Assembly: GCA_021800255.1 (NCBI GenBank)
Contig: JAJYZC010000025.1
Coordinates: 1-43,800, forward strand
DNA length: 43,800 nucleotides
Direction: 5' to 3'
DNA from: Acidobacteriota bacterium
GTDB lineage: Bacteria > Acidobacteriota > Terriglobia > Terriglobales > Acidobacteriaceae
The translations under genes and the position numbers were made by a program. The number at the start of each line of letters is the position of its first letter. Within the stretch, counting starts at the first letter, position 1. Shown in pieces: positions 1 through 39,926 of this stretch. Under the pieces are notes generated by a model. It made no database searches. It was not told where the DNA came from and saw only the letters and a program-made list of their open reading frames with translations.

Positions 1-930
1 ATCAGCGGCTTTCTGGCTACGCGCGGAGTAGGCGGCTTTTTGGCGACCACGGTGACCGCGCCTCTGGAGGCGACGCTGCGCGCTGTGGATGGACTGGCAA
101 AGCTGATGGCGCATCCGCCGGCCGGCGGGCAGGCACGGATTCTGGGCCTTCATCTGGAAGGGCCGTTTCTTTCCCATACTAAGCCCGGCGTGCAGCCGGT
201 CGAGCATCTGCTCGCACCCGACATCGGGATCTTCGACAGGATATTTGAGGCTGCCGGAGGCCAAGTGCGGCTGATGACGCTGGCGCCGGAGCTCGAGGGC
301 GCGGCGGAGCTGACGGCGCACGCCACGCAGCGCGGCGTGCGGGTTTCGCTGGGCCACTCGAACGCCACCGCGGCGGAGACGCGCGCCGCCATCGCTGCCG
401 GAGCCGTGAGCGCCACGCACACCTTCAACGCCATGCGCCCGCTCGACCACCGCGAGCCCGGCATTCTGGGTACGGTGCTCACCAGCGACGGGCTGTTTGC
501 CGAGCTGATCTGCGACGGCGTGCATACGGCGCCGGAGATGGCGCGGCTGTGGTGGCGGGCCAAGGGGCCGGAGCGGGCGATTTTGGTGACCGACGCCATC
601 AGCGCCGCGGGCATGCCGGACGGAGAGTACCAACTGGGCGGATTTGCGGTGCAGGTTGCCGGGGGACGCGCCATGGCTCGGGGCGTTCTGGCGGGAAGCG
701 TTCTCACGCTGGACCGCGCGCTGGCGAACTTTGTGGCCTTTACAGGGGCGTCTGTGGAGCAGGGATTGCGGCTGATGACGGCGAACCCAGCGGCCATGAC
801 GGGACTCGAAGAGCAAGCCGGTTCTCTGGCCGTGGGCGGCGAGGCGAATCTGGTGGCTGTGAGCGCGGAGGGCAGGCTGATGGCCGCGTTTCTGCGCGGG
901 CGGCAGGTGGCGGGCGGGGGCGCCGGCTGA
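1..930 (+). CDS. nagA: N-acetylglucosamine-6-phosphate deacetylase (5' end cut off by the window)
   Basis: Removes the acetyl group from GlcNAc-6-phosphate to give glucosamine-6-phosphate, a cytosolic step in amino-sugar and peptidoglycan recycling. The frame is open from base 1, so the true start lies upstream; the TTG at 40 is internal. Visible family motifs are HLEGPF (from about 151), GHSNAT (about 352) and THTFNAM (about 418), which carry metal and substrate ligands of this amidohydrolase TIM barrel, plus the C-terminal TANPAA...G segment and the small returning beta domain. About 310 residues are present of the usual 380. No other nag gene is in view downstream; cdd follows on the opposite strand. 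Confidence 0.9.
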   Translation: MSGFLATRGVGGFLATTVTAPLEATLRAVDGLAKLMAHPPAGGQARILGLHLEGPFLSHTKPGVQPVEHLLAPDIGIFDRIFEAAGGQVRLMTLAPELEGAAELTAHATQRGVRVSLGHSNATAAETRAAIAAGAVSATHTFNAMRPLDHREPGILGTVLTSDGLFAELICDGVHTAPEMARLWWRAKGPERAILVTDAISAAGMPDGEYQLGGFAVQVAGGRAMARGVLAGSVLTLDRALANFVAFTGASVEQGLRLMTANPAAMTGLEEQAGSLAVGGEANLVAVSAEGRLMAAFLRGRQVAGGGAG

Positions 931-993
931 GCTATGTCCGGCGCAGGGTTGCACCATGCACAGCTGCGCGCCGAGTGCGGCACCGGTACCGGA

Positions 994-1413
994 TTACTTC
1001 AGCTTCATTTCGAACGCGAGCGGGAATAGGGCCGAAAAGGGCATGGTGCGCAGGCCGCTGGCGGCAGGAAAGAGCACTGGCGCTTGGGGCAGAATGAACT
1101 CGGCCAGTACCTGGCGGCAGGCCCCGCAGGGAGGGCTGGCGGCTTCGTTGAGATTGGCTATCGCCAGGGCTTCAACGCGAATGTCCGGCCCGAATTGGGA
1201 AACGCCCCGGACCAGCGCGGAACGCTCCGCGCAGATGGTGAGCCCATAGCTTACGTTCTCGACGTTGGCGCCGGAGACGATCTCGCCGTTGGTGAGCTTG
1301 AGCGCCGCGCCCACGCGGAAGCCGGAGTAGGGCGCGTAGGCGTGGAGCGCAGCCTCCCGCGCGCAGGCAAGCAGCTTTTGGAGTTCGGGTGGTTGTGAAT
1401 CATGCCCATTCAT
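994..1413 (-). CDS. cdd: Cytidine deaminase
   Basis: Hydrolytic deamination of cytidine or deoxycytidine to uridine in pyrimidine salvage; a small cytosolic zinc enzyme. The 139-residue product has the two zinc signatures CAERSA (Cys ligand and catalytic Glu) and PCGACRQ (two Cys ligands), and the usual YAPYSGFRVGAAL start of the fold. The frame is open further upstream to 1527, but ATG at 1413 is preceded by a good AAGGA ribosome site and gives the normal length for the homotetrameric type, so I chose it. It faces nagA and diverges from lpxB. Confidence 0.93.
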   Translation of the reverse strand: MNGHDSQPPELQKLLACAREAALHAYAPYSGFRVGAALKLTNGEIVSGANVENVSYGLTICAERSALVRGVSQFGPDIRVEALAIANLNEAASPPCGACRQVLAEFILPQAPVLFPAASGLRTMPFSALFPLAFEMKLK

Positions 1414-1497
1414 TTCGGTTCCTTCTTCCCGGGGAGCGAGATTCCATGCTAAAACTTTCCGCCTCAGATGTATACCGGCAGACGGCGCGGATCTGTT

Positions 1498-1518
1498 GCC
1501 GGGGATTCCCCGGCTTTT
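1498..1518 (+). terminator. GC-rich hairpin with short T run
   Basis: A perfect 7-bp stem GCCGGGG/CCCCGGC with loop ATT (1498-1514) followed by TTTT. It reads as a weak intrinsic terminator on the plus strand, but no plus-strand gene ends just upstream. It lies in the cdd-lpxB divergent spacer and could equally be a leader or operator structure for either gene. Confidence 0.3.
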
Positions 1519-1656
1519 AAATCCCATCTATCAAGTTGATGTCCTTCCTCCCGATAGGACATTGGAGCGGCGCCACCATTCGCGTGCCCTTTTGCGAGGC
1601 GCGGCCAGTATGATGGTGGGCAGCAGCCTGTAGGTCGGCTGCGCGACCCTATCCTC

Positions 1657-2895
1657 ATGAATCCCAGCATTTTCATCTCGGCAGGCGAGGCGAGCGGCGA
1701 GCAGTATGGCGCTTTGCTGATCGACGCCCTCCAGCGCCGCCTGGCGGCGCAGGGCCGGCAGGCGAGCTTCTTCGGCATGGGCGGCGTGCGCATGGAAGCG
1801 GCCGGCCTGGAGCGCGTGGTGCGCGCCGAAGAGATGGCGGTGATGGGCATAACCGAGGTTGTGCGGCACCTGCCTAGGGTCTACGGCGGGTACCGCAGGC
1901 TACAGCAGGCCATCCGCAAGCGCAAGCCCGATCTGGCCGTGCTTATTGACTTTCCTGACCTCCACTTCAAGCTGGCTGAGGAGCTCAGCCGGCGCAAAGT
2001 TCCAGTGGTTTTCTTTGTCAGCCCTCAGTTGTGGGCCTGGAAACAGCACCGCGTCCGCTTGGTGCGCAGCTATGTGCGCCGCATGTTGGTCATCTTTCCC
2101 TTCGAGGAGACCTTTTACCGGGAGCGCGGGGTGGCGGCTGAGTTTGTGGGCCATCCCCTGGCCGAATTGCCGCTGCCCTCGATTAGCCGGGAGCAATTCG
2201 CCGCAGAAAACCGTCTCCATACCGGGCGCACGTGGATCGCGCTGCTGCCCGGCAGCCGCCCCAGGGAGATTCGCGATCACCTGCCGCAGATGCTTGAGGC
2301 GGCTTGGACGTTATCCCTCCCCGTGCCCGCCGCGGCCTACCCCTCAGAGAAGTACGAGTTTCTGATTCCTTTGGCGCCCACGTTAAGCGCCGAGCAACGG
2401 GCAGAGGCATTGCAGTTGGCGGAAGATTATGGGGGCGGATTGGCGGTGCGAATCGTGGAAGATGCCCGCGCGGCGCTCTTTCACTCCCGCGCCGCGGTGG
2501 TCGCCAGCGGCACAGCCACGGTTGAAGCTGCTCTCATCGGCAATCCCTTTGTTGTGGTCTACCGCGTCTCTCCGGTGACCTATGCCGTGGCCAAGATGAC
2601 GGTCAAGGTGCCGCATGTGGCCATGGCTAACCTGATTGCCGGCAAGCGCGTGGTTCCAGAGCTGATCCAGAATGACTTCAAGGCTGCAAATATCGTCAAA
2701 CAGCTTGAGCCCTTGCTACCGGATGGGCCTGCCCGCGAGTCCATGATGCAGGAGTTGACCGCCATCCGGGATGCGCTGAGCACTCATCCAGCCGGGGATC
2801 CATTTAAGGGCGTGGGAGCCATGGAGCGCGCGGCGGCGATCGCGCTCCAAGAGCTGGATGCAGCCGCCCATGCGGCGAAGGCGAAGAGCGCATAA
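1657..2895 (+). CDS. lpxB: Lipid-A-disaccharide synthase
   Basis: Condenses UDP-2,3-diacylglucosamine with lipid X to form the lipid A disaccharide at the inner face of the cytoplasmic membrane, showing that the host makes LPS. The 412-residue GT19 protein begins with the family N-terminus (SAGEASGEQYGALL), then FFGMGG, the MGITEVV segment, VDFPD-like LIDFPDLHFK, SPQLWAWK, the LPGSRPREI loop and the C-terminal ASGTATVEAAL/PFVVVYR donor-binding region. ATG at 1657 fits the family start although there is no clear ribosome site. No other lpx genes are adjacent. Confidence 0.95.
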   Translation: MNPSIFISAGEASGEQYGALLIDALQRRLAAQGRQASFFGMGGVRMEAAGLERVVRAEEMAVMGITEVVRHLPRVYGGYRRLQQAIRKRKPDLAVLIDFPDLHFKLAEELSRRKVPVVFFVSPQLWAWKQHRVRLVRSYVRRMLVIFPFEETFYRERGVAAEFVGHPLAELPLPSISREQFAAENRLHTGRTWIALLPGSRPREIRDHLPQMLEAAWTLSLPVPAAAYPSEKYEFLIPLAPTLSAEQRAEALQLAEDYGGGLAVRIVEDARAALFHSRAAVVASGTATVEAALIGNPFVVVYRVSPVTYAVAKMTVKVPHVAMANLIAGKRVVPELIQNDFKAANIVKQLEPLLPDGPARESMMQELTAIRDALSTHPAGDPFKGVGAMERAAAIALQELDAAAHAAKAKSA

Positions 2896-2981
2896 CCCTC
2901 AATGGCGTCCACGGCCCAAGCAGCAGCGGCCCGGCTGGCGGCTGTAGGATGAGGATAGGTATGCGGAGAGGAGAACGAAAT

Positions 2982-4988
2982 TTGCCCGCCGGCTCCGGAC
3001 AGCGCCAGTTGCGGCGCCGTTTAGTCGCGCTTGTAACCGTTTTGTTGGCCGCTTGCGCCGCGCTCCCTCTTCTGGCGCAGACCTATCAACAGCCGACTCC
3101 GAACATTACCGGCTATGTGATCAACGCGGAGTTGCTGCCTTCTACGCATCATCTCACGGCCACGGCGGTGGTGACCTTTACCGCGCCGCCCAACCTCGAT
3201 GTGATTACCTTCGGCTTTCATCCCGCGCTGAAGATCACGAAAATTACCGATCAGAACGGCAATCTGCTGAATGGCGAGCGGATGGCTGACGGCTCGGTGC
3301 GCGTCGTGCCCGCCGCGCCTTTCGTGCAGGGCCAGGCGCAGAGCTGGACCTTCCAGTATGGAGGCACGCTCACAGGCGCTGAGGACGGTCCGGTACCCGG
3401 CCTCCGGCTGGCCGCCATCGAAGAGCCCATCAGCTACCTGCTTTATCCCGCGCGCTGGTTTCCCATGACCGGCTACTTGACCGACAGGTTCACGATGGAG
3501 ATGCACGTCAGCGTGCCGGAGGGGATGCGGGTTTTCGCCAGCGGGGCCGTGGGCGAGCCGAAGTCCGTGACGCTGAGTAACGGCAAGCCCGGCTACGAGT
3601 ACGGCTTCAAGTGGGATAAGCCGGATTTTCCGGGAACCGTAATCGCCGGCCGCTACGTGGAGCCGCCTGCGGTCGGCTTTGGCAACATCAAGGTTTACCT
3701 CACGGTCAGCCATCAGGCCTCCGCCACACAGCTCGCTCAAACCGCAAACAATGAGTTCAACTACTTTACCGGAATCTTCGGGCCGGCAGAAACTCCTTAT
3801 TTGAACGTCGTCGAGCTGCCCGATAATACTCTGCCCTCGGCGTGGGCTCCGCAACTAGCCGCCATACCCGGCTCCTATGTGGATAACAGCGCCGGCGTGC
3901 GCCTGTTGGCCAACACCATGGTCCATCAGTGGTGGGGATGCAAGGTAAGCCCGCGCACCCTCAACGATGCCTGGATCACCAACGGCATGTCCCGCTACGG
4001 CGAGTTGATGTATCTGGAGAGCGTGAGCGGCCAGGGCGCATTGCTTGCCGCCCTTCAGGATGTTGAAGCCGGGGCGCTTGCCTATGACACCATCCCGCTT
4101 TCCAGCGCCGGCACCCTGGACCCCTTCTCGCCCGAGTTCCAGTCCATGACTCTGGAAAAGGGCGCTATGGTCTTCCATATGTTGCGCGGAGAGGTCGGCG
4201 AAGGCGCCTTTTTGGCCACGCTCAAAGGCGCGCTCAGCCAATACTCCGAGCAGCCGATCACCACCGGGGATTTTGAGCGGGTGGCTGAGGCCCATAGCCA
4301 GCAGGAGCTGGCCCCCTTCTTTTCCCAATGGGTTGACGGCACCGGCGCACCCCAGTTCACTGACAAGTACGCTGTCTACCGCCTCGGTAACAACAAAGGT
4401 TTCCGAACTATCGGTTCGATCGATCAGAATCTCGACCTGTTTAACATGCCAGTCCAACTGCGCATCGAGACCGAGGGCAAGACCGTAACCAAGAAGATTG
4501 ACGTGGTAGGGGATACCACCCAGTACGTCGTGGACACCTTTGGGCGCCCGCGCAACATCAGCATCGATCCCAACGATTGGGTGCTGAAATCCACTCCGAA
4601 CCTCAAGGTGCGCGTCTTCGTCCTCAAGGGGCAGCAGTTGGTTGCCCAGGGCGATCTCAACGGCGCGTTGGCTCAGTATAAGCAGGCGCTTAAGGTCAAT
4701 CCGGAGAGTTCTTTGGCCGAATTTCGCATCGGGGAGGTTTACTTTACCATGCGCGATTATCAGGCCAGCGTAGACGCCTTCCGGGCTGCTTTACGCGGCG
4801 ACGATGTTCCACCCTGGACCCAGGTTTGGAGCCACATCCAGATCGGCATGATCTTCGATCTCACCGGCCAGCGTGATCGCGCGGTGAACGAATACCGGCT
4901 CGCCATCCAGACCAATGACAACACGCAAGGGGCGATCAACCAAGCCCGCGCCTACCTGCAAAAACCCTATTCACAGCCAAAAAGCTAA
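2982..4988 (+). CDS. M1 aminopeptidase-like protein with lost zinc site, plus TPRs (predicted pseudo-enzyme)
   Basis: An exported protein of 668 residues: signal peptide (about 1-35, ending LLAQ), an M1-type beta N-domain, a degenerate M1 catalytic domain (about 230-460) and tetratricopeptide repeats (about 545-660). The M1 zinc site is HExxH-x18-E; here it reads N311-T312-M-V-H315 ... N334, so two of three zinc ligands and the catalytic Glu are gone, while the flanking HQWWG is kept. The GxMEN exopeptidase loop is also absent. I infer a binding or scaffold role in the periplasm or envelope. Start: ATG at 2949 or 2961 are possible, but TTG at 2982 follows a strong GGAGAGGAG site by 8 nt and gives a normal signal peptide. 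Confidence 0.82.
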   Translation: MPAGSGQRQLRRRLVALVTVLLAACAALPLLAQTYQQPTPNITGYVINAELLPSTHHLTATAVVTFTAPPNLDVITFGFHPALKITKITDQNGNLLNGERMADGSVRVVPAAPFVQGQAQSWTFQYGGTLTGAEDGPVPGLRLAAIEEPISYLLYPARWFPMTGYLTDRFTMEMHVSVPEGMRVFASGAVGEPKSVTLSNGKPGYEYGFKWDKPDFPGTVIAGRYVEPPAVGFGNIKVYLTVSHQASATQLAQTANNEFNYFTGIFGPAETPYLNVVELPDNTLPSAWAPQLAAIPGSYVDNSAGVRLLANTMVHQWWGCKVSPRTLNDAWITNGMSRYGELMYLESVSGQGALLAALQDVEAGALAYDTIPLSSAGTLDPFSPEFQSMTLEKGAMVFHMLRGEVGEGAFLATLKGALSQYSEQPITTGDFERVAEAHSQQELAPFFSQWVDGTGAPQFTDKYAVYRLGNNKGFRTIGSIDQNLDLFNMPVQLRIETEGKTVTKKIDVVGDTTQYVVDTFGRPRNISIDPNDWVLKSTPNLKVRVFVLKGQQLVAQGDLNGALAQYKQALKVNPESSLAEFRIGEVYFTMRDYQASVDAFRAALRGDDVPPWTQVWSHIQIGMIFDLTGQRDRAVNEYRLAIQTNDNTQGAINQARAYLQKPYSQPKS

Positions 4989-5042
4989 AGTAATTGAAAG
5001 CGGCGGCTTTTATGGCCGCACGATCCTGCGGTAAGCCCGGTG

Positions 5043-5064
5043 TTCGGCCGTTTTCGAGGCCGAA
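5043..5064. terminator. 7-bp hairpin after the M1-like gene
   Basis: Perfect inverted repeat TTCGGCC/GGCCGAA with an 8-nt loop, 55 bases past the stop codon. There is no T run, so it is at best a weak terminator; it may act together with the repeat element just downstream. Confidence 0.3.
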
Positions 5065-5147
5065 GTGTGGAACAGCCGGCCGCCCTTCCGTTGCGCCTCA
5101 GTCAACACGCAAAGCGCCTTTCCGCTCGGCGTCAATCGGGTTCCACG

Positions 5148-5257
5148 GCATCTTCGGAACAGGTGTAGTCCGGTTGAGATGGATGATTATGCTGCCGCTC
5201 TTTGAGGTCGCGGGAGCTTGAATGTGTGCTTTCGGTTTACAGGATTTCTGAAAATTC
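5148..5257. repeat. Copy A of a 110-bp element with terminal inverted repeats
   Basis: Aligns without gaps to 37095-37204, with 83 of 110 positions identical by hand count. The ends GCATCTTCGGA and TCTGAAAATTC pair at 8 of 11 positions plus one G-U. A central hairpin (arms 5187-5198 and 5210-5221, 11-nt loop) pairs at 9 of 12 positions plus one G-U. Its right end is one base from the stop codon of the minus-strand epimerase gene. It fills the space between two convergent genes. Confidence 0.75.
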
Positions 5258-5258
5258 T

Positions 5259-6287
5259 TTAGCTGTTCCTTGCCCGCCATCGCCGCGCCAAATCTTCAGC
5301 CGCTGCGGGCCACTCGGGAAACTGGAACTCGAAGCCCGCTGCCAGCAGACGCCCCGGCGTCACGCGCCGGCTCTTGAGCACCAGCTCTGGCTCGCTGCGC
5401 ATCAAGAACGACCCTAGCGCGATCAGCGGCGCGGGCGCGGGCAGGCCGTTGGGCCGGTTCCAGGCTTCGCGCAGCGCGGCCATGAACTCGCGGTTGGGCA
5501 CGGGATTGGGCGCCGCCATGTTCACTGGCCCCTCGATCTCTTCGTGCACGATGAGAAACTCCACGGCGCGCGCAAAATCGGCCTCGTGCATCCAGGAAAC
5601 GAATTGCCTCCCGTTGCCCTGCATCCCGCCCAGGCCGGCGCGCGCCAGGTACGAGAGCACGGCAAAGACGCTGCCCGGCGCCGGGCTCATCACCAGCGAG
5701 ATGCGCAGAGCAATCTTGCGCGTGCGCGGCGTCCCGGACAGCTCGCGGCCTGCGGGGCCGAACAACGCGCCCTCCCAATCCTTCACCATCCCCACGGTCC
5801 AGTTCCACTTCTCTGGCGCGCGCCGCCGCCAGATTCCCTCGCCGACCCACTCGTTGCCGCCGGTCTCGCCCGTGGCTTCGTCCATCTCCCGGTCGAGCGC
5901 ATGGCGGTAGATGGTGGCTGATGATGCATTCATCCACACCCGCGGCGGCTCTTCAAGTCCCGCAATCACTCGCTCCAGCAGCCGCGTCGGCCCGATGCGC
6001 GACTCGTAAAGAGACTGGCGGTTACGCTTCGTGTAGCGGCAGTTGATGCTGCGCCCCGCGAGGTTGATGCACACGTCTGCGCCTTCGAGCGCCTCTACCC
6101 ACAGTCCGGCGTGCGCACCGTCCCAGTGCATGGTCTGCCAAGGCGCGGCGTAAGGCCCGCGCGTCAGCACCGTCACATGGTGCCCGCGCTCCTGGAAGTA
6201 CGCGGCCAGCAACCGTCCCACCTGCCCGCTGCCGCCGGCCAGCACGATGCGCAATGGCTTGGCGACTGGCGCCGAAGATTGATTCAT
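5259..6287 (-). CDS. NAD(P)-dependent epimerase/dehydratase-like protein, TIGR01777 (YfcH/SDR39U1) family
   Basis: An extended short-chain dehydrogenase fold protein of 342 residues; the substrate of this family is not established. The N-terminal Rossmann signature AGGSGQVG (about 17-24), the family block ADVCINLAGRSI, the DGAHAG/WVEALEGAD region and the C-terminal DUF1731 segment (GRLLAAGFEFQFPEW) are all present, and length is normal. The second gene of a minus-strand pair behind gph (53-bp gap), yet it has its own TAGGCT exactly 6 nt before ATG and no Shine-Dalgarno, suggesting a separate leaderless transcript. Confidence 0.88.
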   Translation of the reverse strand: MNQSSAPVAKPLRIVLAGGSGQVGRLLAAYFQERGHHVTVLTRGPYAAPWQTMHWDGAHAGLWVEALEGADVCINLAGRSINCRYTKRNRQSLYESRIGPTRLLERVIAGLEEPPRVWMNASSATIYRHALDREMDEATGETGGNEWVGEGIWRRRAPEKWNWTVGMVKDWEGALFGPAGRELSGTPRTRKIALRISLVMSPAPGSVFAVLSYLARAGLGGMQGNGRQFVSWMHEADFARAVEFLIVHEEIEGPVNMAAPNPVPNREFMAALREAWNRPNGLPAPAPLIALGSFLMRSEPELVLKSRRVTPGRLLAAGFEFQFPEWPAAAEDLARRWRARNS

Positions 6288-6293
6288 GGACTC

Positions 6294-6299
6294 AGCCTA
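6294..6299 (-). promoter_or_regulatory. Candidate -10 for a leaderless transcript of the epimerase gene
   Basis: TAGGCT on the minus strand, 6 nt from ATG (6287). Transcription starting about 6-7 nt downstream would begin at the start codon. No convincing -35 is visible. Confidence 0.4.
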
Positions 6300-6340
6300 C
6301 CGCAGGGCTTTGCGCTAGGCTACTGGCGGCGGTCGCCAGG

Positions 6341-7099
6341 TCACGCTCTCGGAGCCGGAGAACACGTGCTGGCTGGCTTCGGACTAAGGGCTTTCGGCCA
6401 CTCCGCCGCTGCATCGACCACTACGTCCGGCGGGGTTTCCATCAGGTTCTGCGGCCCGAAGCCGAAGGCGCACCCTATAGACCACGCCCCGGCGTTGCGC
6501 GCCGTCTCCACGTCCACCTGGCTGTCTCCGATCATCACCGTATCCTCGGGCGCTGCTCCGGTCTCTTCCATCAGCGTGCGCAATCCCAGCGGGTCCGGCT
6601 TCTTCACGGGAAAGCTGTCACCGCCGTAAATGTGCGCGAAATAGTCCGCCAGTCCCAGCCCCTCGCAGATGCCCCGCGCCGGCCGGACGGGTTTGTTGGT
6701 CAGCACGGCCATGGTGCGCGTCTTCGCCTGCTGCCCCCCGTGCAGCTCGGCCAGCGCCTTCAGCGCCTCCAGCACGCCGTCATACGCATAGGTGAAGTCC
6801 AGCTTGTGCTCGCGGTAGTACTGCAGGAAGAACGCATAGGCGCGCTGGAATAGCTCCTCGTCTACCCCGTCCGAAGCCACGCCTGCGGCCAGCGCCAGCG
6901 AGCGCCGCACCAGCAGCGGCGCGCCATTGCCCACAAAGCCCGCAATCGTCCGGTCCTCAAGCGGCGCCAGTCCGTTTTCCTTCAGCGCCGCGTTCACGCT
7001 ATTGCATAAATCCTGCGCCGAGTCGATCAGCGTGCCGTCGAGGTCGAAGACCAGCAGCTTCAGCCTCTCCACGGGAATGGGGCGATAGACGCGAATCAT
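6341..7099 (-). CDS. gph: HAD-family phosphatase, probable phosphoglycolate phosphatase
   Basis: A cytosolic HAD subfamily IA hydrolase of 252 residues. Motif I is FDLDGTLIDS (nucleophile and acid Asp), the helical cap follows (about 35-110), motif II is VLTNKP, motif III lies in KKPDPLGL, and motif IV is MIGDSQVDVETA. The best fit is Gph/PGP, which dephosphorylates 2-phosphoglycolate, but the specificity of HAD-IA enzymes is hard to assign from sequence. The C-terminus has a short unusual Pro/Ser-rich tail. TAAACT sits 6 nt before ATG; a GGAG is present but only 2 nt from the start, too close to act normally. Confidence 0.82.
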   Translation of the reverse strand: MIRVYRPIPVERLKLLVFDLDGTLIDSAQDLCNSVNAALKENGLAPLEDRTIAGFVGNGAPLLVRRSLALAAGVASDGVDEELFQRAYAFFLQYYREHKLDFTYAYDGVLEALKALAELHGGQQAKTRTMAVLTNKPVRPARGICEGLGLADYFAHIYGGDSFPVKKPDPLGLRTLMEETGAAPEDTVMIGDSQVDVETARNAGAWSIGCAFGFGPQNLMETPPDVVVDAAAEWPKALSPKPASTCSPAPRA

Positions 7100-7105
7100 G
7101 TCTCC

Positions 7106-7111
7106 AGTTTA
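7106..7111 (-). promoter_or_regulatory. Candidate -10 for a leaderless gph transcript
   Basis: TAAACT on the minus strand with 6 nt (GGAGAC) before ATG at 7099. Same geometry as at 6294, 23683 and 31054. Confidence 0.4.
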
Positions 7112-7301
7112 ACGGGTACGGATTCTGCGTCCTCAGTCTCTCTGCAATCAGCCCCGTCTTGCTGCTCTAACGGCGTCTTGCAGCCGCAAGCCGGATGGGG
7201 AATCCCCCGCTTGGGAAACCGCGCCTCCGAGTGCGATGATGTTGGTGCGGGCGGGCCTGGTTGGCCCGCGCGTTTCCATTTTCGTGAAAGGAGATCCGCT
7301 G

Positions 7302-8033
7302 GTGAAAAAGCTACTTGCCTTCCAGGCCGCGGTTCTCGCCGCCGTCTTGACCCCCATGGTTGCGGCCGCGCAAACGCCGGCCGCGCAGCCGTCCCACCCC
7401 CTCTTCATCACCGACGCGGCCGCCGAACGCATTCCCAACCTCGACCTCCTCAAGGCCGAGCTGAGGAGTTATCACGACTGCACCTGCACCTGCGGCTGCT
7501 ACGCCCACGATCTCAACCTCCAGGCTGACCGCGCCATTGTCTATCTACGCGGCCGCGCAGCCCATCGCCGCCCTCACGAAAAACTGGCTATGATCCTTGA
7601 CATCGACGAAACTTCACTCTCCAACTACAAGGAGCTGCTGCAATCCGGCTTCACCTACCGCAAGCCGGAGTTCGATGCCTGGGTCAACTCCGCCCAGGCG
7701 CCCGCGATTCCCGGCACCTTGCGCCTTTACCGGGAAGCCCAGCGTCTCGGCGTCGCCGTCTTCTTTATCACTGGCCGTCCCACGTCGCAGCGCGCCGCCA
7801 CGGAGCGCAACCTTCGTGCCCAAGGCTATGAACACTGGCAGAATTTGATTTTGCGTCCGCCCTCGACCGGCTCCGAATCCGTTGACGCCTTCAAATCCGC
7901 CGCCCGCGCCCGCATCGCCGCCCAGGGGTACACGCTGATTCTCAACGTCGGCGACCAGTGGAGCGACCTGAAAGGCACGCCCGAAGCCGAGTACAACGTC
8001 AAGTATCCCGACCCCTTTTATTACCTCCCATAG
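7302..8033 (+). CDS. Secreted acid phosphatase, HAD subfamily IIIB (class B/C, e(P4)-like), with CxCxCxC cluster
   Basis: An exported 243-residue phosphomonoesterase of the HAD IIIB group, expected in the periplasm. GTG at 7302 follows AAAGGAGA at good spacing and starts a clear signal peptide (KK, then a hydrophobic core ending AAAQ); a longer open frame from 7236 is not needed. Motif I is ILDIDETSLSN (nucleophile D100, acid D102), motif II FFITGRP, and the late acidic motif NVGDQWSDLKG. Odd feature: where relatives have a Ser/Gly stretch after the conserved Tyr-His, this protein has C60, C62, C64 and C66 in a CxCxCxC run, which could form disulfides or bind metal. Confidence 0.85.
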   Translation: MKKLLAFQAAVLAAVLTPMVAAAQTPAAQPSHPLFITDAAAERIPNLDLLKAELRSYHDCTCTCGCYAHDLNLQADRAIVYLRGRAAHRRPHEKLAMILDIDETSLSNYKELLQSGFTYRKPEFDAWVNSAQAPAIPGTLRLYREAQRLGVAVFFITGRPTSQRAATERNLRAQGYEHWQNLILRPPSTGSESVDAFKSAARARIAAQGYTLILNVGDQWSDLKGTPEAEYNVKYPDPFYYLP

Positions 8034-8208
8034 CGCCGCGCCCCGTGCCCACAGCCCCTCAACTCGGCCGCGATGCGGATGAGCGGCGCGGCTCTTCGAT
8101 GCATCAACGTTCCTCCCGAGCCGGTCCTGATTCGCCCATCAGCCCGCCGCCGTCCCAAGCGGCGGCCTCTGCAAAGCTGCAAAGCGGCGACAAGCTGGAA
8201 CGGCTTTC

Positions 8209-9825
8209 GTGGGAATGCTATTCTCAGCGCAGATGCACGGCCTGCCGTTGCTCAAATCCGCCGCTGTGGCCATGCTCATCCTGGCCAACGCCTTCTTTGT
8301 GGCCACCGAGTTCGCGCTGGTTTCTGTCCGCGACGCGCGCATTGAGCAACTCCTCGCCGCCAAGGTTCCCGCGGCGCGCGCCGTCCGCCGCCTGCAGCGC
8401 GGCATCGACGATCTGCTGCCCGCCGTGCAGCTCGGCGTCACCCTTTGCTCGCTGGCTCTGGGCTGGATCGGCGAACCGCTGGCCGCCTCCATCCTTGCCG
8501 GCTGGCTGGGCGCGCTGCCCCATGCCCATATCTACGCTCATGTAGCCGCCATCACCCTCGGCCTGGCCCTCATCACCTACCTCACGGTCGTCATCGGCGA
8601 GCTGGTTCCCAAGGCCATCGCCTTGCGCCGCACGGAAGGGCTCGCCATGGCGGTTGCCCCGCCCATGCTGGCTTTTATCACCATGGTTCGTCCCGCCGTC
8701 CGCCTGCTGCGCGGCTCGGCTGCCGCGGTTTTGCGCGTCTTCAATGTGCCTCTGACGGAGCGCGCCGAGGTTCACTCCCCCGACGAACTCAAGTTCATCG
8801 CCACCGCCGCCCGGCGCATGGGCCTGCTGCCTCCTTTTCAGGAGACGCTCATCCACCGCGCCCTCGAACTGGACAGCGTTCCCGTGCGCGAGATCATGAC
8901 CCCGCGCCAGAAGATTTTTTCCCTGCCCTCCAACATGCTTGTCCAGGAGGCCGCTGCCCGCATCGCTGCCCACCATCACTCCCGCGTTCCCGTTTACGAC
9001 GAAACCCGCGGTCCCGAGCACATCGTCGGCCTCGTCTACGCTCGCGATCTCGCCCGCTTGCTCTTCTTCCGCGCCTCTGCGCCGCGGCGCAGCGCCGATT
9101 CCGTTTCTCAGCCCGCCTCGAATGAGCCCGCCGTTCTTCCCTTTCCGGATGCGTCCGCAGCTTCGCCAATCCGCGCCGCGCCGGAGTCTGCGCTCGCCCA
9201 GACAGCGCCCCGTCCGATCTCAACCAGCGCCGCAAGCGCGCCGGAAACCCCGGAAGCCGAGCTTCCCGCGCCAACCACCGCCGGCCTGAATCCTCCCTTT
9301 GTCGATCTGAAGCTCGTCCAGGTCATGCGCGATGTGCTCATCGTCCCTGAAACCAAGTCCGTCCTCGACCTGCTGCGCGACTTCCAGCGCCGCCGCCGCC
9401 ATCTCGCCATCGTGGTGGACGAGTACGGCTCCATCGCCGGCCTGGTCACCTCCGAGGACGCCATCGAGCAGCTTGCCGGCGAGTTCGAAGACGAGTTCGA
9501 CGCGCCTGTCCAGCCCATCCTCACCACCGCCGCCGGCGCTCTGATGATGGACGGCGGCGTCAACCTCCGCGACCTGGAGACCCAGATGCAGTGGAATCTG
9601 CCCCGCGACGGCGGCGTGGAAACCCTGGCCGGATTCCTGCTCTACCGTCTCGGCCACATCCCCAGGCCCGGCGAATCCGTGGTCCACGAGGACCGGCGCC
9701 TGACCGTAGCCGCCATGGATGGCCGCCGCATCGCCAAAATCCGCGTCGAACCCATCCACAAAGAGAGTTTGCCCAGCAAAGCCTGCGGGGGAGGCGAAAC
9801 ACCGGCTGGTAAAATCAAATTTTAG
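8209..9825 (+). CDS. CNNM/CorC (hemolysin-like) membrane protein with CBS domains and a long linker insert
   Basis: Family: CNNM transmembrane domain (DUF21, about residues 10-190, several hydrophobic segments, including the family EFALVS motif), CBS pair, and C-terminal CorC_HlyC domain (about 450-520). Members are linked to Mg2+ or Co2+ transport, but direction and ion are uncertain. CBS1 runs about 208-275 (PVREIMTPR...) and CBS2 about 365-430 (...VVDEYGSIAGLVTSEDAIE). Between them lies about 80 residues rich in Ala, Pro and Ser, which is not usual for the family. Length 538 residues versus about 430 typical. GTG at 8209 is chosen; ATG at 8215 is as possible, since neither has a good ribosome site. 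Confidence 0.85.
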   Translation: MGMLFSAQMHGLPLLKSAAVAMLILANAFFVATEFALVSVRDARIEQLLAAKVPAARAVRRLQRGIDDLLPAVQLGVTLCSLALGWIGEPLAASILAGWLGALPHAHIYAHVAAITLGLALITYLTVVIGELVPKAIALRRTEGLAMAVAPPMLAFITMVRPAVRLLRGSAAAVLRVFNVPLTERAEVHSPDELKFIATAARRMGLLPPFQETLIHRALELDSVPVREIMTPRQKIFSLPSNMLVQEAAARIAAHHHSRVPVYDETRGPEHIVGLVYARDLARLLFFRASAPRRSADSVSQPASNEPAVLPFPDASAASPIRAAPESALAQTAPRPISTSAASAPETPEAELPAPTTAGLNPPFVDLKLVQVMRDVLIVPETKSVLDLLRDFQRRRRHLAIVVDEYGSIAGLVTSEDAIEQLAGEFEDEFDAPVQPILTTAAGALMMDGGVNLRDLETQMQWNLPRDGGVETLAGFLLYRLGHIPRPGESVVHEDRRLTVAAMDGRRIAKIRVEPIHKESLPSKACGGGETPAGKIKF

Positions 9826-9849
9826 TCCCGCTGAGAGAGAGATTCGCCT

Positions 9850-10860
9850 GTGCCTTCCACCCAATCCGCGCGCTCTTTAAGTACTGCCCCGCTCACCTTT
9901 CAGGACCTGCTCTTCCGCTTGCAGGCCTTCTGGGCGGAGCGCGGCTGCGTCTTGCAGCAGCCCTACGATGTAGAGGTGGGCGCAGGCACCATGGCTCCGG
10001 AGACCTTTCTGCGCGTGCTGGGGCCGAAGCCCTACAAAGCCGGCTACGCGCAGCCCTCGCGGCGGCCGGCCGACGGCCGCTACGGCGAAAACCCCAACCG
10101 GCTCTTCAAGCACACCCAGTTCCAGCTCATCCTGAAGCCGCCGCCGGAGAACGTGCAGGAGATCTACCTGGAATCACTCGAAGCCATGGGGATCGACCTC
10201 GCGCGGCACGACCTTAAGTTCGAGGAGGACAACTGGGAGTGGCCCGCGGGCGGCGCCTGGGGCGTGGGCTGGCAGGTGATGCTCGACGGCCTGGAGATCA
10301 CTCAGTTTACCTACTTCCAGCAGTGCGGCGGCCTGGACCTCGATCCCATCTCGGCCGAGCTGACCTACGGCATGGAGCGCATCGCGGCGTTTTTGCAGGA
10401 CGTGGATTCGATCTACGACATCGTGTGGGCGCGCGACCCGGAGACCGGAGCCTCCAACGGCAGGTCTTCGCTGCTGGGGTGGAAGACCGGCGCGGCGGTC
10501 ACCTACGGCGACGTGAGGCTGGCCGAGGAGCTGCAATTCTCCGTTTACAACTTCGAGCTGGCCGAGATCGACAAGCTCTGGACGCACTTCAATCTGTACG
10601 AAGCCGAGGCGCAGGCTCTGCTCAACCAAGCCAACGCGCTGCTGGCAAACGAAACCGCCAGCCCCACGGAGAAGCGCCGCTTCCCGCTGCTGGCCACGTA
10701 TGAGCTGGCCCTCAAGTGCTCGCACCTGTTCAACCTGCTCGATGCGCGCGGCGCCGTCAGCGTTACCGAGCGCGTGGGCGTGATCGGCCGCATTCGCAAT
10801 TTGGCCGTCGGCGTGGCCAAGGCGTATGCGCAACAGCAAGCTGTGGGAACAAGCGGCTAG
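9850..10860 (+). CDS. glyQ: Glycine-tRNA ligase, alpha subunit
   Basis: Catalytic subunit of the bacterial alpha2beta2 glycyl-tRNA synthetase, charging tRNA-Gly with glycine in the cytosol. Family hallmarks include [27 protein letters not shown], the class II motif region [16 protein letters not shown] and [14 protein letters not shown]. The 336-residue length is slightly above the usual 290-305, mostly from C-terminal Ala-rich sequence. The GTG start follows GAGAGAGAG. glyS follows after a 148-bp spacer that holds heptamer repeats. Confidence 0.96.
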
Positions 10861-10973
10861 CCGTCAACTACGAGCTATCAGCTTTCAGCTTGCTGGTTGC
10901 AAATGGATACCGCTCCAGGCAGCACAAAAGAAGCTGATAGCTGATAGCTGAAAGCTGACGGCTGAAAGCTCAA
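10859..10973. repeat. Heptamer repeats forming a large hairpin between glyQ and glyS
   Basis: Six tandem copies of AGCTGAN (10932-10973: AGCTGAT, AGCTGAT, AGCTGAA, AGCTGAC, GGCTGAA, AGCTCAA) are preceded by the same unit in reverse orientation around 10874-10890. The arms 10859-10890 and 10932-10963 pair at 27 of 32 positions around a 41-nt loop. The left arm begins within the glyQ stop codon. Tandem 7-mers of this kind are scattered in many genomes; their role is unknown. Here the structure sits in the transcript joining the two subunits of one enzyme. Confidence 0.7.
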
Positions 10974-11008
10974 CCGCAATAGAAAAAGCTCAGGAAGTGC
11001 ATGAACTT

Positions 11009-13108: not shown

Positions 13109-13201
13109 GCGCGGCGTCATGGATGGCCTTCTCGTCGGCTTCCGCAGCCTCGTTGACCTGGCGCGAAGCCCCGAGCAGCGCACTGAAAGGCTGGAAGGGG
13201 G

Positions 13202-14260: not shown

Positions 14261-14267
14261 AGCATGG

Positions 14268-14273
14268 AGTGTA
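14268..14273 (-). promoter_or_regulatory. Candidate -10 for a leaderless transcript of the MetX-like gene
   Basis: TACACT on the minus strand, 7 nt before ATG at 14260; no Shine-Dalgarno in between. Confidence 0.38.
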
Positions 14274-14328
14274 AACCGAGCGCCCGAAGCCGATCCACCT
14301 CTGTATCGGGTTGCGCCTGCACGGCGTC

Positions 14329-14334
14329 TAATAT
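14329..14334 (+). promoter_or_regulatory. Candidate -10 for the 14343 gene and the lpt cluster
   Basis: TAATAT, 8 nt before ATG at 14343, without a ribosome site. It would drive the hypothetical gene and probably the lptC/A-lptB genes behind it. Confidence 0.4.
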
Positions 14335-14342
14335 CGATAGAG

Positions 14343-15044: not shown

Positions 15045-15047
15045 AGC

Positions 15048-17600: not shown

Positions 17601-17625
17601 CCGCCGGCGCGCGCCTGTGAGCTAA

Positions 17626-18354: not shown

Positions 18355-18363
18355 GTGGCAATT

Positions 18364-18380
18364 GGCCGGGTTTTCCGGCC
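18364..18380 (+). terminator. Hairpin just after lptB
   Basis: Perfect 6-bp stem GGCCGG/CCGGCC with loop GTTTT, beginning 10 nt after the lptB stop. No T run follows, so it may only attenuate reading into rpoN, which lies 198 bp downstream. Confidence 0.35.
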
Positions 18381-18552
18381 CCGGTTGTCAATCCCTCGCG
18401 GCCGTTGCCGGGGCCCATGCGCCAGGCAAAGATCCCCGAATGGATCGTTGCCCAAAGCGGAACGGGTGTCTTAATACGCAACATTTTTCTCTTGAGGGCC
18501 TTCTTCTCACGATTAAACTTGCATTGAGTGCGAGCGGGAATGAGTCCCATTT

Positions 18553-23694: not shown

Positions 23695-25212
<1,518 letters not shown>

Positions 25213-25291
25213 AAGGCGGGACGCTTACCTTGAGCGAGCGGTGACGCGGAAGAGTCCGCCGCCGGGGTTTGCGGGAGTTGGGAGCAGGAGT

Positions 25292-25313: not shown

Positions 25314-25374
25314 GTGGCGCGGTTCGCGGCCGGCGTGTTGAAGCGGATGCCATCGTCCCCGCTCCGAAGAACCT

Positions 25375-29789: not shown

Positions 29790-29792
29790 AGG

Positions 29793-36251: not shown

Positions 36252-37034
36252 ATGCTGCCTAAACGAGGGTCTATGCCGGCTGGCGCTCCAATTCGATCTT
36301 GCGGCAGCGTGGTTTTGGTCACGTCGGCCGATTTCAATCTGCTTGGAGCGGCGCACCTGCTCATCCTCGCCGCCATCCCTCTTCTTGCCGCCATTCTCAC
36401 AGCCATCCAGAGCCGCCTCCGGCGCGGATCAAGCGGCGTGCGCCTGGGCTTGGGATCTGTCCTTCTCCTGGACATGGTTCTGTGGTATGGGTACCTGGCC
36501 GCGATCCGGCAGCTTAGCTTTCCCGGCGCGCTGCCCCTCGATCTCTGCGATGTCACGCTTTTTTTGGTCACCCTTGTGCTGTTCAACCTCAACGCGGCCG
36601 TCTTCGATCTGGTCTATTACTTTGCCTTGGCTGGCACTTCCATGGCCCTGCTCACACCTGACCTATGGGAGGCTTTTCCATCCCTGTCCACGGTGCAGTT
36701 TTTCGCCTCTCACGGCCTGGCGGTCGCCGCCGTTCTTTATCTTGTCTGGTCGGGGCAGGCGCGGCCGCGGCCCGGCTCGGCGCCAAGAACACTGCTGGCT
36801 CTGAATCTCTTCGCCGCATTCGATTTCACGTTCGACGCCGTCTTCAAGACCAATTACATGTACCTGCGCGCCAAGCCTGAGAGTCTGTCGCTGCTCAATG
36901 TTCTGGGCCCGTGGCCGTGGTATATTTTGACCTCGGATGCCGTCGCCTGGGTCTTGTTTCTGTTGCTCTATCTTCCCTTTCGCGCCTCGAGCCGGAGCCG
37001 GATGGCGCAGCGAAAGAGGCCAGGCGGGCAGTAA
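36252..37034 (+). CDS. TIGR02206 (YwaF-like) integral membrane protein
   Basis: A 260-residue protein with about seven hydrophobic segments. Typical family marks are LPLDLCDVTLF (charged polar pair at a helix start), YYFALAGTSMALLTPDL and FFASHGLAV, with conserved Pro, Asp and His residues inside the membrane. The function of this family is unknown. It is not in an operon: it diverges from the receiver gene and its 3' end faces the efflux pair across repeat copy B. The N-terminal 20 residues before LVTSADFNLLG may be an over-extension; a GTG near 36309 is possible. Confidence 0.8.
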   Translation: MLPKRGSMPAGAPIRSCGSVVLVTSADFNLLGAAHLLILAAIPLLAAILTAIQSRLRRGSSGVRLGLGSVLLLDMVLWYGYLAAIRQLSFPGALPLDLCDVTLFLVTLVLFNLNAAVFDLVYYFALAGTSMALLTPDLWEAFPSLSTVQFFASHGLAVAAVLYLVWSGQARPRPGSAPRTLLALNLFAAFDFTFDAVFKTNYMYLRAKPESLSLLNVLGPWPWYILTSDAVAWVLFLLLYLPFRASSRSRMAQRKRPGGQ

Positions 37035-37094
37035 GGCAGACGTCTTGCGGCAGGAATCTGTTCCGGTGGGAATTTAGGAAGAACTTGAATTACA

Positions 37095-37204
37095 GCATTT
37101 TCGGAGATGGTGCAGTCCTGCTGAGATTGATTTTCAAGCCGCCGCTTCTTGAGGCCGCGGCGGCTTGAGTATGCGCCTTCGGTCTACAGAGTTTCCGAAA
37201 ATGC
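37095..37204. repeat. Copy B of the 110-bp element with terminal inverted repeats
   Basis: The better-preserved copy. Ends GCATTTTCGGA (37095-37105) and TCCGAAAATGC (37194-37204) are a perfect 11-bp inverted repeat. In the centre, TCAAGCCGCCGC (37134-37145) and GCGGCGGCTTGA (37157-37168) form a perfect 12-bp stem with an 11-nt loop. It lies between the 3' ends of the TIGR02206 gene (37034) and the efflux adaptor gene (37244), as copy A lies between two other convergent genes. Confidence 0.8.
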
Positions 37205-37243
37205 GATAAGGGCGCAGATCAACATACAGAATGCGCAATCGGC

Positions 37244-38473
37244 TTACTTCACCCACACCTTGGGCTCGACTGAAAATCCCGGTCGCAGCTTGAAGTTGGG
37301 GTCCTCCTTGGCCAGGTTGGTGAAGTCGATGCGCACCGGAACCCGCTGCACCACCTTCACGTAGTTGCCGGTCGCATTTTCCGGCGGAAACAGGCTCAGC
37401 ACCGATCCCGTGGCCCCGCCGATCTGCGTCACGCGGCCGCTGTAATCCTTGCCGGTGGCGTCCACATGGATGACAACCTTTTGCCCGGCCTTCATGTGCC
37501 GCAACTGCGTCTCCTTGAAGTTGGCCGTCACCCACAAATCTTCGAGTGAGACCAGCGTGAGCAGATTCTGCCCCGCGGAGACGTTCTCGTCCAGCTCCAC
37601 GCTCTTGCGCGTGATGATGCCCGCCACTGGAGTCACGATCATCGTATAACTCAGGTTCAATTTGGCTTGATCCAGGGCGGCCTGGGCCTGCTTCACCAGC
37701 GCCTCGGCCTGCTTGGCGCGGGCGCTTTGAGCAGCCACCTGCTGCGGAGCCGTCTGCGCGTAGCGCAGCATGGCTTGCGCCTGCGCCTCGCGCTCGCGGG
37801 CCGCGCGCACGGCGTCTTCAGCGGCCTTCTGGCTGGCGCGGGCGTCGGCCAGCGCGGCCTTGGCGGCGTCGGCCGCGGCCAAGGCTGTGTCGTACTGCTG
37901 CTTGCTGATCACATCTTTCTGAACCAGCGGCCTGTAGCGCATCAGGTCCGACTGCGCCTTGAAGTTGTTGGCCTGGGCCTGCGCTACGCGCGCGCGCGCC
38001 GCGTCCAGTTGCTGCCTGGCCTGCGCGACGGTGGCGTGCGTTCCTGTCACACTGGCATAGGCCGCCCGCAGATTGCTGCCTGTGTTCACGGTGGTAATGG
38101 GCACGTTTACCTTAGCCGCCGCTGCATTCGCCTTGGCGCTGGCCAGCGCGGCTTCGGCTTTTTCCACCGCGACCTCGTAGTCGCTGGGGTCCAATTCGAC
38201 GATGGGGTCGCCCTTCTTCACCATCTGGTTCTCTTCCACAAACACCTTGGCCACGTGGCCGTTGATGCGCGCACTGATCTGGATCAAGTGCCCGCTCACC
38301 TGCGCGTCATCGGTGTCTTCGCTGTAGGTCGAGCGCCACCAGATTCCCACTGCCGCCAGCACGGCAACCACGATCGCGGCTATGAGAAGACCTCTACGGC
38401 GCGACGGCGAACGCGCCATCTCTGTGGCCGTCTCAGGTTCGCCGCCTTCCGGTGTTGGATAGCTGTCCGCCAC
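37244..38473 (-). CDS. EmrA/HlyD-type periplasmic adaptor (membrane fusion protein)
   Basis: Links an inner-membrane exporter to a TolC channel. The 409-residue protein has one N-terminal membrane anchor (about 26-44), a biotinyl-lipoyl half (DDAQVSGHLIQISARINGHVAKVFVEENQ region), a long Ala/Gln-rich coiled coil (about 95-255), the second lipoyl half (LSYTMIVTPVAGIIT) and a C-terminal beta barrel. GTG at 38473 is chosen: it follows GGAGGT by 7 nt, and that site lies across the tolC-like stop, only one base away. A TTG at 38488 overlapping the upstream gene is less likely. No permease gene follows downstream. Confidence 0.9.
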   Translation of the reverse strand: MADSYPTPEGGEPETATEMARSPSRRRGLLIAAIVVAVLAAVGIWWRSTYSEDTDDAQVSGHLIQISARINGHVAKVFVEENQMVKKGDPIVELDPSDYEVAVEKAEAALASAKANAAAAKVNVPITTVNTGSNLRAAYASVTGTHATVAQARQQLDAARARVAQAQANNFKAQSDLMRYRPLVQKDVISKQQYDTALAAADAAKAALADARASQKAAEDAVRAAREREAQAQAMLRYAQTAPQQVAAQSARAKQAEALVKQAQAALDQAKLNLSYTMIVTPVAGIITRKSVELDENVSAGQNLLTLVSLEDLWVTANFKETQLRHMKAGQKVVIHVDATGKDYSGRVTQIGGATGSVLSLFPPENATGNYVKVVQRVPVRIDFTNLAKEDPNFKLRPGFSVEPKVWVK

Positions 38474-38474
38474 G

Positions 38475-39926
38475 TCACTTACCTCCAAGATACTGCTTGT
38501 AAGCCTGCCCCGCGCCTAGAGCCCGCGCCAGGCTCAACTTGGCTAAATTGTCCTGGTACAGGCTCACCACAAACCGCTCGTTGGCCTGCGCCACCGACTG
38601 CTGCGCCTGGCTCACCGCCAGGTTGCCGCTCACCCCGTTTGCATACCGCTCCTGTGCGTCCCGCAGGGCCTTGTTGGCCAGCGCCACGCTGGAACGCGCC
38701 ACGCCCACCTGCTTCTGCGCCGAAGCGATGTCGAGCAGCGCGTCGCGCACTTCGGCGTCGATCTGGGCCCGCTTATCGCTCAACTGCGCCCGCTGGGCGT
38801 CCAATTGCGCCTGCGCCTCCTGCGCTTCGCCGCGCAGAGCGAACTCCTTGAAGACCGGCACGCTCAGGTTCGCGTCGGCGTCCACGGTGCCGTGGGAGTG
38901 GCTAACGTTCACCCCGATGTCGCCGTAATCGGCCTCGGCCTTCAAAACCGGCAGCCGTTCCGCGGTTGCCGCTTTGCGCTCTTCCTCGGCGGCCTCGGTC
39001 TGCTCCACCAGCGCGGCCAGGTCCTTGCGGTTGGTTTCGGCTTCGTGAATCAGAGCCGCCACGTTCAGCTTGCCCAGCGCCGCGTAAGGCGTCTTGGTGG
39101 TCAACCTAAATTTTTGCGCCAGGGGCAGCCCGATGGCCCGCGCCAGCGCCAGTTTGTCCTTCTCCAGAGCGTCGCGCGCCACGATCAACTGCTGCTCCTG
39201 CGATTGGTAATCCACGCGCGCTCTTAACTCGTCCAGCAGCGGCGAAGTTCCCGCCTGGTGCCTGGCCACGGCCTGATCCAGCGAGATTTTGGCCGTGGCT
39301 ACTTGCGCTTCCACGCTGCTCACCCGCGTCTGGTCGGCCAGCACCAGCAGGTAGGCGTTGCCCACCGTCAGCACCACCAGGTTGCGCGCGTCTTCGGCGC
39401 TCAACTGCGCGGCCTTAAAATTGTCCTGCGCGGCCAGGTAATGGCGCAGCGAGGGCACGTCCACCAGCGACCAGTTCAGCGCAGCCCGCAGATCGGTATA
39501 CCCGAACGGCCCGATAATCACGGGAAAGCCGGGAATGCGCAAGCCCTCCGCCGGCAGATCCTCCTGCATTGCGACTTCATTGGCATTGAAGTTCACTGCG
39601 GGCAGCAGGGCCTGCAATTCGCTTAGCCGTTCTCCCCGCGCCGCCGCCGTTTGCGTCCCGCTCAGGATGATTCCCAGGTTGGTCTTCAAACCCCGCTCAA
39701 TGGCCTCGTCGAACGAAAGCCCGATGGTCTGGGCTGAAACCTGGCCCTTCGTTACGCTGCCTTGAAAGCTGAGCGGCGTGGGCGCCGCCGCATTGGGGGG
39801 CTGCGGCGTCTGCGCCGCGGCGCTTCCCGGCGCCAACCCATTCAAGGTCCAGGCCGTAAGCCCTAGAAGTATGACGCAAGCACACCGGCAGGCGCCGCTC
39901 TCTCTTGTATTCTTTGGTGCAATCAA
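38475..39926 (-). CDS. TolC-family outer-membrane efflux protein
   Basis: Outer-membrane channel of a tripartite efflux system, 483 residues. A signal peptide (ending AAAQ, about residue 38) is followed by two OEP repeats (about 65-270 and 275-475), with the typical GLSFDEAIERGLKTNLGI start and repeated Ala/Gln-rich helices. The ORF opens with TTG at 39926 without a ribosome site, so the start is uncertain. Directly upstream of the adaptor gene on the minus strand, clearly one transcript. Confidence 0.9.
   Translation of the reverse strand: MIAPKNTRESGACRCACVILLGLTAWTLNGLAPGSAAAQTPQPPNAAAPTPLSFQGSVTKGQVSAQTIGLSFDEAIERGLKTNLGIILSGTQTAAARGERLSELQALLPAVNFNANEVAMQEDLPAEGLRIPGFPVIIGPFGYTDLRAALNWSLVDVPSLRHYLAAQDNFKAAQLSAEDARNLVVLTVGNAYLLVLADQTRVSSVEAQVATAKISLDQAVARHQAGTSPLLDELRARVDYQSQEQQLIVARDALEKDKLALARAIGLPLAQKFRLTTKTPYAALGKLNVAALIHEAETNRKDLAALVEQTEAAEEERKAATAERLPVLKAEADYGDIGVNVSHSHGTVDADANLSVPVFKEFALRGEAQEAQAQLDAQRAQLSDKRAQIDAEVRDALLDIASAQKQVGVARSSVALANKALRDAQERYANGVSGNLAVSQAQQSVAQANERFVVSLYQDNLAKLSLARALGAGQAYKQYLGGK

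Follow-up and report, generated by a model that had tools for sequence, protein, structure and literature searches.

A dispersed family of TA-bounded inverted-repeat elements in an Acidobacteriota genome, most likely IS630-type MITEs

Results

Two copies of a 118-bp repeat lie between convergent genes

The window analysed here comprises 43,800 nucleotides (positions 1 to 43,800 of contig JAJYZC010000025.1, Acidobacteriota bacterium assembly GCA_021800255.1). It holds two copies of a short repeat, A and B, and independent gene calls agree with the original prediction that each copy sits between the 3' ends of two convergent genes (Table 1). We found that positions 5148-5257 and 37095-37204 can be aligned gap-free over 110 bp, with 83 identical positions and with 18 of the 27 differences (about two-thirds) being transitions, exactly as had been counted by hand. 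The repeat and its terminal inverted repeats (TIRs) are real, but 110 bp proved too short an extent. When 30 loci from the same genome were aligned with copy A, conservation ran on to a TA on either side, and the actual element is 118 bp long and TA-bounded. The left TA of copy A now reads CA, its first T being gone. One base had also been thought to separate the end of copy A from a stop codon; instead, the final three bases of A are themselves the TAA stop of the gene to its right. The perfect 12-bp stem with an 11-nt loop described at the centre of B is present, its arms being fully complementary.

Table 1. Positions of the two repeat copies, their parts and the genes on either side.
Feature	Position	Strand	Remarks
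Copy A, alpha subfamily, 118 bp	5144..5261	+	E 5.2e-26 with covariance model R1
Copy B, alpha subfamily, 118 bp	37091..37208	+	E 1.5e-31 with covariance model R1
Left TIR of A, 17 bp	5144..5160	+	includes the duplicated TA, here CA
Right TIR of A	5245..5261	-	TA at its end
Left TIR of B	37091..37107	+	
Right TIR of B	37192..37208	-	
Central hairpin of B	37134..37168	.	two perfect 12-nt arms (37134-37145 / 37157-37168), 11 nt between
Central hairpin of A, decayed	5187..5221	.	alignment columns shared with the hairpin of B
TAA stop of gene 5259-6287	5259..5261	-	final 3 bases of copy A
Left neighbour of A	2949..4988	+	Peptidase_M1 + TPR protein, 3' end facing A
Right neighbour of A	5259..6287	-	Epimerase + DUF1731 protein, 3' end facing A
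Left neighbour of B	36252..37034	+	TMEM164-family protein (PF14808, E 2.9e-44), 3' end facing B
Right neighbour of B	37244..38488	-	HlyD-type membrane-fusion protein, 3' end facing B

At 118 bp, both copies fall within the size range of MITEs (about 70-300 bp, with no capacity to encode a transposase). Their TIRs, which should measure 15-30 bp in a MITE, correspond to a 17-pair helix in which 89.7% of cells are paired across 36 elements and which has decayed in A.

One of the neighbours of B is a TMEM164-family protein, encoded here in a bacterium. In relatives, the genes flanking A, and also those flanking B, are found on different contigs or far apart. We considered that the copies might mark breakpoints but dropped the idea because many other neighbours in the window are scattered as well in five relatives. 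Gene order is much shuffled across the genus, and blocks of the window (1-20000 and 23801-43800) match different contigs in five relatives.

The repeat recurs at about 95 places in two subfamilies

The original prediction called for a covariance-model search of the genome, and such a search did uncover many more copies. With B as query, BLAST gave 46 matches in its own genome at E<=1. A covariance model, R1, was built from 26 copies; its RNAalifold structure missed the TIR stem, and R1 served purely as a profile. Searching the 3.36-Mb genome with R1 returned 131 rows at E<=1, which came to about 95 places once we had merged one split copy and 35 duplicates on the opposite strand. Allowing up to 3 mismatches, the TIR pattern TANNGCATTTTCGGAAAT matched 98 + 95 times in the same genome and its reversed control 2 + 4 times (193 against 6), so that the family shows the dispersed, multi-copy occurrence of a MITE. 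For gene context, we set aside seven weak or partial places (C59:41401, C97:16459, C66:15473, C61:16892, C54:59769, C59:66172 and C59:66310), leaving 88, and three of these lie at contig ends where context is absent, leaving 85. Four further copies, known by their TIR only, stand outside the 88 (C53:2673, C68:7454, C85:41055 and C18:29560).

The 88 places divide evenly, with 44, including A and B, closer to a consensus that we denote alpha and 44 closer to a second, beta, which is about 116 bp long and has a different core. Full-length beta copies are nearer their own consensus (94.4% identity, 43 copies) than are alpha copies (85.1%, 29 copies), and beta is therefore probably the younger subfamily. 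Lengths of 116-118 bp are typical of the family, and lengths of 153-197 bp are rarer. Five copies in this genome and several in relatives are lengthened by a further short palindromic repeat within the hairpin loop.

A 42-bp palindromic unit, GCGTTCCACCCCAGCGACGAAGACCTGTCGCTGGGGACCCCG, occurs elsewhere in this genome as 3.1 perfect tandem copies (contig 48, L281:1020-1150). Units resembling it occupy the loops of MITEs of 153-197 bp whose stem sequence varies, twice in one locus (L064:2896-3092), and another lies within the transposase frame of the IS630 element L198 (L198:1458-1495). A probe containing the unit matched many contigs of the genus. We also observed 24-bp palindromes consisting of two TIR halves with no core (C7:2287-2310, C19:9019-9042 and C90:31057-31080), which look as if an element had collapsed onto its ends.

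Beyond this genome, a scan for the TIR pattern with at most 1 mismatch picked out 29 of 58 further species of the genus, none of 14 from the sister family and one of 26 from elsewhere in the class; single matches are possibly due to chance, and the control pattern matched once. An exact two-TIR pattern was found on seven contigs of a GTDB collection, a search that may omit records close to the genome of the window; every one belongs to a MAG named Acidobacteria, Acidobacteriaceae or Acidobacteriota.

Insertions duplicate a TA, and IS630-type elements of the genus have matching ends

Several arrangements record insertion of the element into a TA. On contig 25, a beta copy is nested in a longer alpha copy with a TA on either side, and excising it together with one TA restores an alpha-like sequence. 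Similarly, when the sequences on either side of the C81:6317 alpha copy are joined via one TA, they match C85:35033-35155 without a gap (73% over 123 bp, E 1e-14), the joint carrying a single CTAG; both of these unoccupied-site comparisons rest on paralogous repeats, at 73% identity in the second, and not on close strains. A third repeat, gamma, is 114 bp long with ends TAGAGCGTGTTTCATAAA and occurs at C29:58238-58351 and C81:11297-11410; on contig 29 it sits in a TA within an alpha copy, and on contig 51 a gamma-like end is adjoined by a beta copy. Across the family, 49 of the 74 full-length copies retain a TA at both ends, and in the other 25 it is absent from one or both. The TA target duplication of a MITE is thus seen in the nested beta copy, in the paralogous empty site and in these 49 copies.

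The 49 TA-keeping copies also point to a preferred target. The TA is preceded by C in 26 copies and by T in 19, and followed by G in 39; the full CTAG context is found in 19 of the 49, whereas 248 of the 6037 TA sites in intergenic DNA have it (p 5e-14). A preference for CTAG is reportedly named in the title of Tenzen and Ohtsubo 1991, a reference cited in PMC2170065.

Duplication of TA at insertion is described in PMC2170065 as a hallmark of IS630/Tc1-mariner transposition. A DDE_3 protein of the IS630 kind is encoded in 22 of 80 genomes of the genus, and paired TIRs about 1 kb from each other were found in 15 of 30 fetched loci, in 13 of which at least one end starts TAGAGC. TIRs like those of the MITEs occur in DDE_3-bearing IS630-family elements of related genomes: L198, which is 1069 bp long and encodes HTH_33 and DDE_3 across two frames, matches the MITE ends at 22/28 and 24/28, and the right ends of L262 and L272 match at 23/28. 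Such agreement is rare, since only 6 of 4431 TA-starting 28-mers from 30 transposase loci match the MITE ends at 22/28 or better. These six are both ends of L198, the right ends of L187 and L197 (TAGAGCATTTTCTGTTTTACTGTAGACC), and 28-mers in L176 (26) and L189 (23). The last two lie near transposase loci, where we found no transposase-bearing pair with them as ends, and they may themselves be MITEs. MITE-sized TIR pairs also lie close to the DDE_3 loci L107 and L109. As a separate observation, L084:1071-2010 is an intact-looking IS630 element of 1024 bp whose transposase spans two overlapping frames, a split that resembles programmed frameshifting.

We found no matching IS630 element in the genome of the window itself: its draft assembly has four DDE_3 places, none flanked by the TIR of the 118-bp element, and inspection by eye of unpaired TIRs over 1.19 Mb recognised no autonomous transposon. 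A set of 29 DDE_3 loci scanned from other genomes likewise lacked the element's TIR around the transposase. Membership does not require a matching IS in the same genome, because the parent may have been lost. With no autonomous copy bearing these ends in the assembly, the moving enzyme is one that we infer, and since the best TIR match is just 24/28, the exact parent is not in hand.

A different enzyme was considered. TIR repeats can be spread by a tyrosine transposase of the TIRYT type (HUH, IS200/IS605-like) instead of a DDE enzyme, and such genes, with one TIR repeat family, are known in Koribacter versatilis, an acidobacterial TIRYT group being described in a passage of PMC3733652; the subterminal sequence of our element is palindromic too. 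We nevertheless judge this very improbable, because TA duplication with a CTAG preference is a mark of IS630/Tc1-mariner elements (PMC2170065, in its account of the group) and because it is DDE_3 elements of the genus that carry matching ends. The many copies, the TIRs, the TA duplication and the IS630 relatives with matching ends uphold the suggestion that the repeat is MITE-like. With a probability that we put at roughly 0.92, A and B belong to an approximately 95-member TIR/TA repeat family that most likely consists of non-autonomous MITEs mobilised in trans by an IS630-type transposase. Such a transposase would act on the ends of the element by cut-and-paste.

Copies are enriched near gene 3' ends

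None of the 88 places lies within a gene. Gene context is available for 85 of them: 28 copies lie between convergent, 42 between tandem and 15 between divergent genes, against 13.4% convergent and about 30% divergent expected from the non-coding bases or TA sites of 1.19 Mb that was chosen around the copies and annotated with a home-made gene caller (convergent excess, p about 3e-6; divergent depletion, p about 0.009). When regions are counted instead, the convergent excess holds (p 7e-5) and the divergent deficit vanishes (p 0.5). The expectation of non-random placement at gene ends is thus borne out by the convergent excess, but the arrangement seen at A and B is not general, given 42 tandem and 15 divergent copies. 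Nor is the excess accounted for by target choice, because CTAG sites are scarcer still between convergent genes (21/228). A gene 3' end lies within 60 bp of 37 of the 85 copies and a 5' end within that distance of 12; in tandem gaps, 27 copies are nearer the 3' end as against 15 (p 0.09 to 0.12), a tendency on which we rest no claim. Selection acting against copies that land in genes or promoters would account for the excess at gene 3' ends, and the copies probably persist chiefly where they are harmless.

Following the original prediction, the copies could instead serve the host where they stand, recruited as terminators acting in both directions or as stabilisers of mRNA 3' ends, with their fold under selection. 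The convergent excess and the proximity to 3' ends favour such a role, as does a statement in PMC3733652 that MITE hairpins have been reported to stabilise or destabilise mRNAs. However, the older alpha copies are no more often convergent than the younger beta copies (13/42 against 15/43), and the same convergent bias is interpreted as tolerance in the discussion of RUP in PMC3049150.

The hairpin covaries among elements but decays in individual copies

Copy B folds far better than shuffled RNA (z -4.67 and -5.15 for the two strands), in keeping with recruitment, whereas the fold of A is on a par with that of shuffles (z 0.09 and -0.82), and an inverted-repeat search at the settings that found the arms of B reported none for A. 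The named structure shows covariation across 36 elements from the two subfamilies and from relatives, a further point in favour of recruitment. It scores 0.236, against 0.126 for shuffles and at most 0.126 for slid versions, a lead over the slid versions that is partly built in, as the scored structure was chosen after viewing the same alignment; 9 of 13 central pairs are altered on both sides. This covariation indicates that source elements keep the hairpin.

The private changes of individual copies, counted in 72 of the 74 full-length copies, argue against recruitment. In alpha, they fall on the stem as often as elsewhere (16/577 against 57/1905), with rates per site of 2.8% in the stem, 3.3% in the TIR and 3.0% in the rest; in beta the corresponding rates are 0.8%, 1.6% and 1.5%, with no significant difference (beta stem lower, p 0.16). 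Of the 16 private stem changes in alpha, 13 break a pair, one is one-sided with the pair kept and two are compensated, and in beta four break a pair, two are one-sided with the pair kept and none is compensated. When shared changes are included, 13 alpha stem pairs are altered on both sides and 12 of them remain paired, which could be taken to favour recruitment but which we read as subfamily history. The same holds for the C-G pair of B that is T-A in A, previously offered as a compensatory change and a sign of a kept fold: T-A is present in 8 of the 26 copies of one alignment (T-G in three and C-A in two), so that the change marks a subfamily and did not arise at this site. The anticipated excess of paired substitutions is found across the 36 elements, but not in the private stem changes, which mostly break pairs.

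We also searched 4950-5350 and 36990-37300 on both strands for terminator-like sites (a G+C-rich hairpin followed by a T-run) and found none, and neither copy showed a promoter-like site. With no terminator-like site at either copy, a fold in A like that of shuffles and private mutations that mostly break pairs, recruitment as a terminator or stabiliser finds no support, and we consider it unlikely, although individual copies may have a functional role. The pattern is more consistent with a hairpin that would be kept in source elements for their own spread, and not site by site for adjoining genes.

A covarying fold could also suggest a small structured RNA family, such as an sRNA or riboregulator, that is multi-copy by happenstance. 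Against this, no Rfam 15 match above the gathering threshold lies within the window, elements are nested in elements with TA duplication, and the fold forms in the sense of both strands and has decayed in A; we regard this explanation as extremely improbable. An Rfam scan of six loci gave two matches, both under the gathering score: AsdA, an antisense RNA of dnaA (L077:5133-5213, minus strand, 41.2 bits against a gathering score of 52, E 4.2e-5), and Acido-Lenti-1 (L078:3023-3054, E 0.48), which spans one end of an element.

Some element ends coincide with stop codons

In 7 of the 88 places, copy A among them, the neighbouring gene terminates on the element itself, its stop codon (TAA six times, TGA once) being formed by the element's final three bases. 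The protein to the right of A was matched in 28 of 29 loci examined, with a readable stop in 27, and in none of these 27 is the element found in the 57 bases past the stop. Twenty-six of the 27 orthologues terminate at 328-348 residues (342 here), and one extends to 395. These positions make insertion of A at a native stop likely rather than demonstrated. A speculative extension, on which we would place only low odds, is that MITE ends double as stops: insertion in the TA of a stop would in one step supply a stop together with a long hairpin. If this is true, the family seeds two-way gene boundaries genome-wide, some of them serving the host as 3' ends.

Discussion

Our results likely describe a new repeat family of an already known kind, the IS630-type MITE, and not a purpose-built gene terminator. 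A genus known from MAGs thereby gains a set of insertion markers, with two subfamilies of differing age, nested cases and matching IS630 ends. The family also illustrates that a bias towards convergent genes and covariation between subfamilies can arise without any sign that single copies are kept, which cautions against taking such repeats for recruited terminators.

Literature searches combining MITE terms with Acidobacteria, or for palindromic intergenic repeats, turned up no publication describing MITEs of this type from Acidobacteria. In PMC8841776, MITEs appear solely in the reference list, and the MITE review PMC10969869 contains neither "acidobact" nor "IS630". The nearest published thing that we found is a section of PMC3733652 on Acidobacteria, Koribacter among them, in which TIR repeats occur together with tyrosine transposases.

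Among known repeats, REPs had been named as a possible parallel. GTAG/CGTC REPs, as characterised in parts of PMC3733652, are intergenic palindromes of 20-40 bp, often beside gene 3' ends and also between convergent genes. Our element does not fit their definition or that of BIMEs, as it is 118 bp long and has TIRs and a TA duplication. ISY100 and other IS630/Tc1-mariner elements duplicate TA on insertion, according to the relevant text of PMC2170065, just as the 118-bp element does; ISY100 encodes its own transposase, which the 118-bp element cannot.

The Correia element, a MITE of Neisseria, is likewise short, multi-copy, intergenic and foldable, with TIRs at which RNase III cuts; the portion of PMC10969869 devoted to it adds that it carries promoters and lies mostly upstream of genes. 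Our element differs in its lack of promoter-like sites, in A as in B, and in its excess at gene 3' ends.

The RUP element of pneumococcus, as set out in passages of PMC3049150, is 107 bp long, has TIRs like those of IS630-Spn1 (IS630-type) and occurs in about 110 copies with a convergent excess. Twenty-three copies are placed between convergent genes and 65 upstream of a gene (p 3.4e-7), which is interpreted there as tolerated parasitic DNA. The family described here resembles RUP in size, IS630-type TIRs, copy number and convergent excess, a likeness of kind that we draw from the description of RUP. It differs from RUP in belonging to another phylum, RUP moreover being AT-rich, and in the whereabouts of its relatives: the parent IS of RUP resides in the same genome, whereas the IS630 relatives of the 118-bp element were found only in other species of the genus.
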